In this document: piece after piece, positions 10,090 through 11,200 of the stretch
Numbering within the stretch: the first letter of the stretch is position 1
Layout: each line of letters begins with the position of its first letter
NCBI RefSeq assembly: GCF_000826545.1
Contig: NZ_CDME01000021.1
Coordinates: forward strand, 1-64,000
Length of the DNA stretch: 64,000 nucleotides
Direction: 5' to 3'
Source of the DNA: Kibdelosporangium sp. MJ126-NF4
GTDB taxonomy: Bacteria > Actinomycetota > Actinomycetes > Mycobacteriales > Pseudonocardiaceae
The notes under the pieces: model-generated
Database searches by the model: none
The model's input: only the letters and a program-made list of their open reading frames with translations
What the model was told of the DNA's origin: nothing
Made by a program: the position numbers and the translations under genes

Positions 10090-10770
10090 GTGTTCGAAGG
10101 CCTGATGCCCGACCTCACCGCGCTGTCACCAGTCGCGGTGCTGGCGACGATCTTCGTGTTGTCGTTCATGGAGACGACCGTGGTGATCGGCGTCGTCCTA
10201 CCGGGGGAAGTCCTCGTCGGCGCGTGCATCGGGGTGTTGCATGTCGCGTGGTCGCCGCTCGCGGGGGCGGTGGCGGCCGTCGGGTGCCTGGCGGGTCAAC
10301 TGGGTGGTTACGCGCTTGGTCGCTGGTCGGGGCCGGCGATCAAGCACGGCTGGGTCGGCCGCAAGGCAGGCCCGAAACGGTGGGCACAAGCCGAGCGCCT
10401 GGTTGGGGAATCAGGTGGCTGGCTGTTGGTGACAGCGCGGTTCGTCTCCGTGGCGCACACGCTGGCACCTGTGCTCGCCGGTGCGCTGCGGATGCCGTTG
10501 CGCAAGTTCGTCACGTTCGCCGCCGCCTCAGCGGTGGTGTGGGCGGCACTGTGGACCGCTGTCGGGGCCGCGCTGTCCGGCGCCAGCCGGGTCATCGATC
10601 CGGGCGTGTTGTCGTTCGCACTGGTCGGCGGGGGTGTCGTGGTCGGCGGAGTGATCATGACCAAGCTGTTCCGCAGGCTCGACAAGGCGGCCGAGCAGCA
10701 CGCCGACGACGACGCGGGTGAACAACCGGCGCCGCCGCTCGACGCACGCACGCCAGTTGTGTCAAGATGA
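10090..10770 (+). CDS. DedA family (SNARE-associated) integral membrane protein
   Basis: A 226-residue membrane protein with about five hydrophobic segments. It carries DedA landmarks: an acidic residue in the first membrane segment (LSFMETTVVIGVVLPGEVLVGACIG) with the E-x(n)-P-G-E pattern, GRWSGPAIK and the conserved arginine in LVTARFVSVAHTLAPVLAG. DedA proteins are lipid flippases or scramblases for undecaprenyl phosphate or phosphatidylethanolamine in studied bacteria; which one applies here cannot be told. The charged C-terminal tail (about 195-226) is cytoplasmic. GTG start with GGGAG about 20 and GGGGG about 10 bases upstream. Its TGA lies 4 bp before the aromatic leader peptide. Confidence 0.9.
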   Translation: MFEGLMPDLTALSPVAVLATIFVLSFMETTVVIGVVLPGEVLVGACIGVLHVAWSPLAGAVAAVGCLAGQLGGYALGRWSGPAIKHGWVGRKAGPKRWAQAERLVGESGGWLLVTARFVSVAHTLAPVLAGALRMPLRKFVTFAAASAVVWAALWTAVGAALSGASRVIDPGVLSFALVGGGVVVGGVIMTKLFRRLDKAAEQHADDDAGEQPAPPLDARTPVVSR

Positions 10771-10774
10771 GTTC

Positions 10775-10837
10775 GTGCGGACAGAGCGCTTTTACTTTTT
10801 CTACGGGAACCGGACTCCGGCTCCCGTGGTTCTCTGA
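10775..10837 (+). CDS. Phe/Tyr-rich leader peptide of the chorismate mutase attenuator
   Basis: A 20-codon frame, GTG to TGA, reading MRTERFYFFYGNRTPAPVVL. Five consecutive aromatic codons (TTT TAC TTT TTC TAC, 10790-10804) sit just before the first hairpin. The aromatic run, the position 91 bp ahead of chorismate mutase and the overlapping hairpins match the classical design of a transcription attenuator responding to charged tRNA-Phe and tRNA-Tyr. No strong ribosome-binding site is seen within the preceding DedA stop region. Too short for ordinary gene prediction; the case rests on the RNA structures. Confidence 0.8.
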   Translation: MRTERFYFFYGNRTPAPVVL

Positions 10838-10886
10838 CGCCAACCAGACACCACGAAGCCCCCGGAGTCCGCGGACCCGGGGGTTT
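10803..10886 (+). promoter_or_regulatory. Transcription attenuator: protector, antiterminator and terminator segments
   Basis: Three mutually exclusive pairings can be read off directly. Segments 1:2: ACGGGA (10803-10808) with TCCCGT (10822-10827), plus CCGGA with TCCGG inside. Segments 2:3: CGGACTCCGG (10811-10820) is perfectly complementary to CCGGAGTCCG (10862-10871). Segments 3:4: the terminator at 10859-10883. A ribosome stalled on the aromatic codons covers segment 1, frees segment 2 and lets 2:3 form, so transcription continues. A ribosome reaching the stop at 10837 covers segment 2, and the terminator forms. Confidence 0.85.
10859..10886 (+). terminator. Attenuator terminator hairpin
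   Basis: CCCCCGG-A-GTCC, loop GC, GGAC-CCGGGGG (10859-10883), then TTT. Eleven GC-rich pairs with a single bulged A. Only three T residues follow, as is usual in high-GC actinomycetes. Its left arm contains the bases that would instead pair with 10811-10820 in the antiterminator. Confidence 0.85.
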
Positions 10887-10927
10887 CGCGCTCCCGGGCC
10901 AGGCCTCCTAGAACGACAGGAAAGCCG

Positions 10928-11200
10928 ATGACCCCCACGACCGAGAACGGCACCGCCGCCGACGACATCGACGCGCTGCGCAAGGAGATCGACTGGCTCG
11001 ACGCCGAGATCCTGCGTCTGGTCAAGCGCCGCGTGGAGGTGTCGCAGACGATCGGCGCGGCGAGAATGGCCGCGGGCGGCCCGAAGATCGTCTACAACCG
11101 CGAGATGGACGTGCTCGCGCGCTACCGCGAACTGGGCCCGGAAGGCCGCCAGCTCGCCATGGCACTGCTGAACCTCGGCCGAGGCAGGCTCGGCCGTTAA
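10928..11200 (+). CDS. aroQ: Chorismate mutase, AroQ class
   Basis: A 90-residue all-helical chorismate mutase: IDALRKEIDWLDAEILRLVKRRVEVSQTIG holds the N-terminal arginine and lysine that bind the substrate carboxylates. The protein ends GRGRLGR; in M. tuberculosis the equivalent GRGRLGH tail docks onto DAHP synthase, which raises activity and adds feedback control, so the same partnership is likely. It converts chorismate to prephenate, the first step towards Phe and Tyr. The ribosome-binding site is AACGACAGGAAAGCCG before the ATG. The upstream attenuator fits end-product control. Confidence 0.95.
   Translation: MTPTTENGTAADDIDALRKEIDWLDAEILRLVKRRVEVSQTIGAARMAAGGPKIVYNREMDVLARYRELGPEGRQLAMALLNLGRGRLGR

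Follow-up and report, generated by a model that had tools for sequence, protein, structure and literature searches.

Ahead of csm, a gene for a stand-alone chorismate mutase, the Kibdelosporangium DNA analysed here (a stretch of 64,000 nucleotides, hereafter the window) holds an aromatic mini-ORF interlaced with overlapping hairpins, and we read this arrangement, with a probability of roughly 0.85, as a transcription attenuator of the ribosome-mediated kind known from pheA and trp, in which a leaderless transcript would tie csm expression to the charging of Phe and Tyr tRNAs. The mechanism is a known one, on a target for which we found no description in the literature searched. The leader belongs to no Rfam family, and it is conserved through nearly the whole of the sampled family and much of the order.

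A Phe/Tyr leader peptide and overlapping hairpins precede csm

The gene downstream of the leader surpassed both curated cut-offs for its enzyme (NF005894, 120.4 versus 73 bits; TIGR01808, 102.9 versus 52.15 bits), which upholds the stand-alone chorismate mutase named in a preliminary description of this DNA. Chorismate mutase leads to Phe and Tyr, so the downstream gene makes the amino acids that the leader would sense, as is expected of an attenuator. The 20-codon peptide with five consecutive aromatic codons, also claimed there, can be read directly in the sequence (GTG CGG ACA GAG CGC TTT TAC TTT TTC TAC GGG AAC CGG ACT CCG GCT CCC GTG GTT CTC TGA) and supplies the run of end-product codons, FYFFY, that such a leader needs. 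Nowhere else in the six frames of the window do five or more F/Y residues follow one another, and 30 mononucleotide shuffles of the window yielded no such run. The Phe codon TTT, absent from five window genes (0 of 48), makes up 103 of 171 Phe codons in leaders of the family.

Around and behind the aromatic codons lie the three RNA elements already proposed, all of which stood up to inspection: a protector hairpin, an antiterminator formed by 10 bp of perfect pairing, and a GC terminator that shares its left arm with the antiterminator and can be extended on both sides (Table 1). The protector overlaps the control codons, its first base (10803) lying inside the last of them. Two elements are additions to the preliminary description, i.e., a second, inner antiterminator helix and a -10-like hexamer before the leader start.

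Table 1. Features of the csm leader region, in coordinates of the window
Feature	Position	Strand	Basis or remark
-10-like hexamer CAAGAT	10763..10768	+	6 nt before leader GTG
Leader peptide ORF MRTERFYFFYGNRTPAPVVL	10775..10837	+	GTG start 10775, TGA stop 10835-10837, 20 codons
Control codons TTT TAC TTT TTC TAC (F Y F F Y)	10790..10804	+	
Protector hairpin ACGGGAaCCGGACTCCGGCTCCCGT (1:2)	10803..10827	+	Folding; two pairs changed on both sides, one sequence each (family alignment)
Outer antiterminator, left arm CGGACTCCGG	10811..10820	+	Perfect complement of 10862-10871
Inner antiterminator, left arm GTGGT	10826..10830	+	Pairs with 10850-10854
Inner antiterminator, right arm ACCAC	10850..10854	+	Strict 5-bp partner in 39/59 distinct family leaders
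Terminator hairpin, short T-run	10855..10887 (core 10859-10883)	+	Left arm contains antiterminator right arm 10862-10871
AGGAAAG, likely Shine-Dalgarno of csm	10918..10924	+	By eye; outside attenuator hairpins
csm/aroQ, monofunctional chorismate mutase, 90 aa	10928..11200	+	NF005894 and TIGR01808 above cut-off

The transcript is probably leaderless

In 133 of 159 leaders, an in-frame ATG, GTG or TTG is preceded at 5-8 nt by a match to [TC]ANNNT, as against 1 of 159 at a control spacing of 10-13 nt. These 159 are what remained of 163 leaders found after four entries (L176, L196, L238, L245) had been dropped, and they combine 72 distinct leaders of a first set, the window included, with 87 from a broader survey, two sets that share family members and are not independent. 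A scan for sigma-70 consensus promoters called nothing at 10600-11000. Because the -10-like hexamer stands at a conserved spacing before the start codon, transcription probably begins at or next to the first base of the leader ORF (10775). Leaderless transcription has been reported for other actinobacterial leader peptides (PMC8079986).

Stalling in the leader would shift pairing from protector to antiterminator

The mechanism that we infer from the computed anatomy, conservation and alternative pairings, with its translation, stalling, termination and amino-acid response, would run as follows. Transcription would begin on the GTG or right beside it, and the leading ribosome would load on the 5' end of the transcript. 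When Phe-tRNA or Tyr-tRNA is scarce, this ribosome would stall in FYFFY and cover the left arm of the protector, leaving 10811-10830 to pair with 10850-10871; the left arm of the terminator would be sequestered and csm transcribed. When both tRNAs are charged, the ribosome would instead reach the stop codon and cover the left arm of the antiterminator, allowing the terminator to form. With no translation at all, the early-forming protector would favour the terminator, provided that it holds long enough. The leader would thereby respond to tRNA charging.

The whole leader (10775-10890) folds with -57.6 kcal/mol (z -5.0), a stability that none of 200 shuffles attained, and the protector hairpin by itself has z < -2 in 62 of 72 family leaders and 65 of 87 survey leaders. 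Folding in both states, proposed earlier as a check, gave a divided outcome. In free transcripts with 3' ends from 10845 to 10866, the protector has a mean pair probability of 0.83-0.99; with a ribosome stalled at the codon at 10796, it drops from 0.40 at a 3' end of 10855 to 0.00 at 10866, and the inner helix reaches 0.98. Once the transcript reaches 10871, however, the equilibrium folds of the two states are alike: the outer antiterminator prevails over the protector in the free transcript (0.87 versus 0.00) and stands at 0.56-0.87 with the ribosome stalled at any of the five control codons. A ribosome at the stop codon gives the terminator P 1.0, and when the full terminator has been transcribed it is preferred at equilibrium in every stall state (P 0.84-1.0). 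Because free and stalled transcripts ending at 10871 both favour the antiterminator and the complete terminator always wins, the modelled switch must rest on kinetics, as in classical attenuators; equilibrium folds do not demonstrate switching.

Compensatory changes, which the preliminary description had suggested looking for in relatives, were, within the family, present in one of the two antiterminator helices and absent from the other. The inner helix co-varies. Of the 59 distinct family leaders, 39 have a strict 5-bp partner, where 3.9 would be expected, and 20 have none; the matching variants are GTGAT:ATCAC (29), GTGGT:ACCAC (7) and, once each, GTGAC:GTCAC, GTGGA:TCCAC and GTCGT:ACGAC. 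This helix was tested by script because the family alignment (A1) misaligns the linker. The outer helix, by contrast, hardly varies within the family: none of its pairs is changed on both sides, and it does not rise above the shuffled controls.

Compared with dinucleotide shuffles, the antiterminator duplex did not stand out significantly (median z -0.95 and -0.52, with p <= 0.05 in 12 of 72 and 6 of 87 leaders). The terminators chosen automatically for this comparison were evidently mistaken in some leaders, that of the window among them, and it was hence replaced by a group-swap test, in which pairing with a leader's own terminator arm is compared with pairing to foreign arms. On automatic clusters the difference was small (own -15.9, foreign -14.8). 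On eight hand-made groups (142 leaders, 84 of them distinct; one more was missed by the rule), own arms averaged -15.2 and foreign arms -12.7 kcal/mol, and 11 of 40320 permutations were as good as the real pairing, both with kinship not removed; the own arm was the best partner in just 4 of 8 groups, and the arms of one group look mis-assigned. Terminator and antiterminator come out as mutually exclusive in their 10-bp arm overlap, in the folding states and in the group-matched pairing, and in the models the alternative pairings could plausibly form during transcription; on average, they are matched between groups.

The leader is conserved nearly throughout the sampled family

A scan of named species genomes yielded 126 csm relatives, of which the best 80 were analysed: the core TACGGGAnCCGGACTCCGGCTCCCGT (within 4 edits), followed downstream by the GGAGTC terminator arm, was present in all 80, and an in-frame aromatic mini-ORF in 78. 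An RNA model built from the 72 distinct family leaders matched 148 of 150 sampled genomes of the same family, some of them two or three times, and it matched a single place in each of four genomes searched singly. Codon run and pairing have thus been conserved in relatives, the point on which the preliminary description had staked its claim. In the window, the model found the leader with E 1.7e-30; the opposite strand, which carries the same inverted repeats, gave E 2e-5 and 3e-4, and the next match had E 0.13.

The pattern of conservation also bears on whether the leader might act through its peptide, which would arrest the ribosome in the style of TnaC and sense free Phe or Tyr instead of tRNA charging. 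The motif (F/Y)YGx(R/G) does recur across many leader groups, and the peptide is in this respect better conserved than enteric attenuator leaders typically are. However, over the nine codons from Tyr on in the 72 family leaders (648 codons), comparison with the modal sequence gives 57 nonsynonymous and 10 synonymous changes, the former count inflated by three leaders (L029, L019, L024) in which indels after the aromatic run alter the C-terminus of the peptide and leave the RNA core intact. Most base changes after the Tyr codon (40) hit a single bulged base in the hairpin, where they change the amino acid; elsewhere changes are few, and almost every position, third positions among them, is invariant. 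To judge by these substitutions, it is the RNA more than the peptide that is conserved after the Tyr codon, which argues against a nascent-chain sensor and leaves that alternative very improbable; the preferred reading remains the sensing of tRNA charging.

One entry among the relatives, titled Rhodococcus rhodnii NRRL B-16535 (L002), has a csm leader stretch identical to that of Kibdelosporangium aridum (L003) and a csm 98% identical to that of the window; its title is probably wrong or its assembly contaminated.

Leaders of the same kind occur across the order and in the class

A class-level draw of 296 genomes gave 29 with a match to the RNA model. Leaving aside the reference genome, 19 of the 28 matches precede csm, six precede a DAHP synthase, and three are chance-like. 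To be independent of the RNA model, a further search used the protein family of csm. In the order-level sample csm scored above the cut-off in 95 of 121 genomes (100 rows), and 90 of these rows, together with 22 class-level loci (10 of which were below the cut-off), made up a set of 112 csm loci. Mini-ORFs with at least three F/Y/W among five residues were found within 600 nt upstream at 81 of the 112; the antisense strand gave 2 and shuffled sequence 4. A relaxed look for F(x)YG, run with no shuffle or antisense control, added nine order-level and seven class-level leaders. A recognisable F/Y leader, for which a search in related genomes had been proposed, stood at 77 of the 90 order-level loci, with none at 11 and two doubtful cases (L196, L238) left out; of those 11, four are second copies of csm in a genome where the other copy does have a leader. 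The 22 class-level loci divide into 18 with a leader and four without. Six order-level loci with strong csm matches (L145-L148, L156, L162) have no aromatic leader in the 450-600 nt upstream, apparently by lineage-specific loss or absence.

A chance origin of the leader was considered and rejected, because its F/Y run is unique in the six-frame scan, the antisense and shuffle controls are nearly empty, and the leader is conserved in relatives.

The terminator is rich in GC and poor in T

In the window, the T-run behind the terminator stem is short (GGGGGTTTCGCG, i.e., just TTT), and a simple terminator scan of the window called no canonical site, including at 10600-11000. Other leaders are slightly better provided: the 10 nt after the GC stem contain a median of 4 T in the 72 family leaders and 5 in 78 survey leaders, the T-run is somewhat better in other groups, and some survey members have runs of six T after the stem. 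One genome (L105/L142) retains leader and protector hairpin ahead of csm without the usual GC terminator, a natural termination-less case.

The short T-run and the lack of a canonical call would suit a variant of the model in which the leader still senses charging and the hairpin acts through Rho-dependent termination or on csm translation, rather than by intrinsic termination; actinobacterial leaders without obvious or typical terminators have been reported (PMC1262725, PMC8079986). The likely Shine-Dalgarno sequence of csm, however, lies outside the hairpin, and the slightly higher T content of the survey set, with its six-T runs, speaks for intrinsic termination, so that we hold this variant to be unlikely, if worth keeping in mind. 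Far less credible is that the region is a decaying remnant, in which a conserved intrinsic terminator follows an ORF that is there incidentally and csm is driven from an unmapped promoter downstream. Decay of this sort might be seen in two leaders (L034, L067) in which a T-run one base shorter breaks the F/Y (FFY) run, in the survey genome without the usual terminator, and in the loci without any leader; against it stand the retention of the leader in nearly every sampled family genome, the conserved spacing of its start, and its use of F/Y but not W codons.

Codon content differs between leaders of csm and of DAHP synthase

One of 159 csm leaders has Trp among the six codons that end at Tyr, and 21 have just two F/Y among the six counted. 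The six DAHP synthases behind class-level matches of the RNA model are all of the TIGR01361 type and above its cut-off, a type that we take to be class I-beta. At 30 loci of this type (L250-L279), four of which are short so that the search region there is approximate, an upstream aromatic mini-ORF was present in 16, versus 0 antisense and 1 shuffled, and 14 of the 16 (one of the 16, L269, is doubtful) combine Trp with Phe or Tyr. Leader-like ORFs with Trp, Phe and Tyr (L103, L104, L106, L107, L108, L111, L250-L279) include MRTAWSFWYGDGP, MQRNFWRFYGYRP and VARWFFSYYAE, and several DAHP synthase leaders have YG after the aromatic run, as csm leaders do. Upstream of class II DAHP synthases, no leader was found in 700 nt at 16 loci over the cut-off. 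Because DAHP synthase serves Phe, Tyr and Trp, and csm serves Phe and Tyr only, the codon content of the leaders matches the products of each enzyme.

Taken at its widest, a reading to which we give even odds, the leaders would form a class-wide family, as yet uncatalogued, of aromatic attenuators in Actinobacteria, largely on leaderless transcripts and with a codon alphabet set by the place of the enzyme in the pathway (Phe and Tyr for chorismate mutase; Trp, Phe and Tyr for TIGR01361-type DAHP synthase); where a class II DAHP synthase that lacks such a leader is used, attenuation of csm only would set the ratio of DAHP synthase to chorismate mutase. If so, tRNA charging would tune the amount of the allosterically controlled DAHP synthase/chorismate mutase complex. 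Attenuation of csm, whose product is the partner of DAHP synthase, would place a second, tRNA-based control on the same step. The breadth of the leaders and the Trp contrast with those of DAHP synthase make them more interesting than a single case, and knowledge of the csm leader could help studies of how producers such as Amycolatopsis are supplied with aromatic precursors.

Relation to known leaders

In its anatomy, the csm leader resembles the enterobacterial pheA (pheL) attenuator: both have an aromatic codon run, protector, antiterminator and terminator, and both act at the chorismate mutase step. Unlike that system, the csm leader would sense F and Y rather than F only, is apparently leaderless, and has a GC-rich, T-poor terminator; csm, moreover, is stand-alone, whereas pheA encodes a fusion of chorismate mutase and prephenate dehydratase.

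PMC11802643 attests the enterobacterial pheA attenuator and, like PMC4046766, describes the aroR leader of C. glutamicum, a Phe-Tyr-Phe leader ahead of aroF that is reported to respond to limitation of Phe and not of Tyr. This too is an actinobacterial aromatic leader, but it precedes a DAHP synthase, not csm. The actinobacterial leaders leuL, trpL and ilvL share leaderless transcription with the csm leader, and some are without a typical U-tract (PMC8079986). For S. lividans, Table 4 of that paper lists eight leaders, none for Phe or Tyr and none before csm. A 2005 survey (PMC1262725) reported that it observed no RNA structure conserved upstream of the Phe or Tyr operons of Actinobacteria. 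Rv0948 and phenylalanine have 0 occurrences in the main texts of three papers on Mycobacterium transcripts or leaders (PMC13236596, PMC9094748, PMC4633059). No report of a csm attenuator in Actinobacteria came up in the openly readable literature searched, and priority is not certain.

At gathering cut-off, the Rfam 15 families gave 0 matches in the window. Membership in RF00627 (P15), which we take to be a Pseudomonas sRNA lying ahead of a DAHP synthase, was rejected at 20.7 bits against a cut-off of 70; the likeness consists of a weak full-length match to positions 10792-10883 (E 0.012-0.022). The P15 consensus contains UAUUAUUUUUGG, readable as Tyr-Tyr-Phe-Trp, and to go by this reading P15 may itself be an aromatic attenuator.
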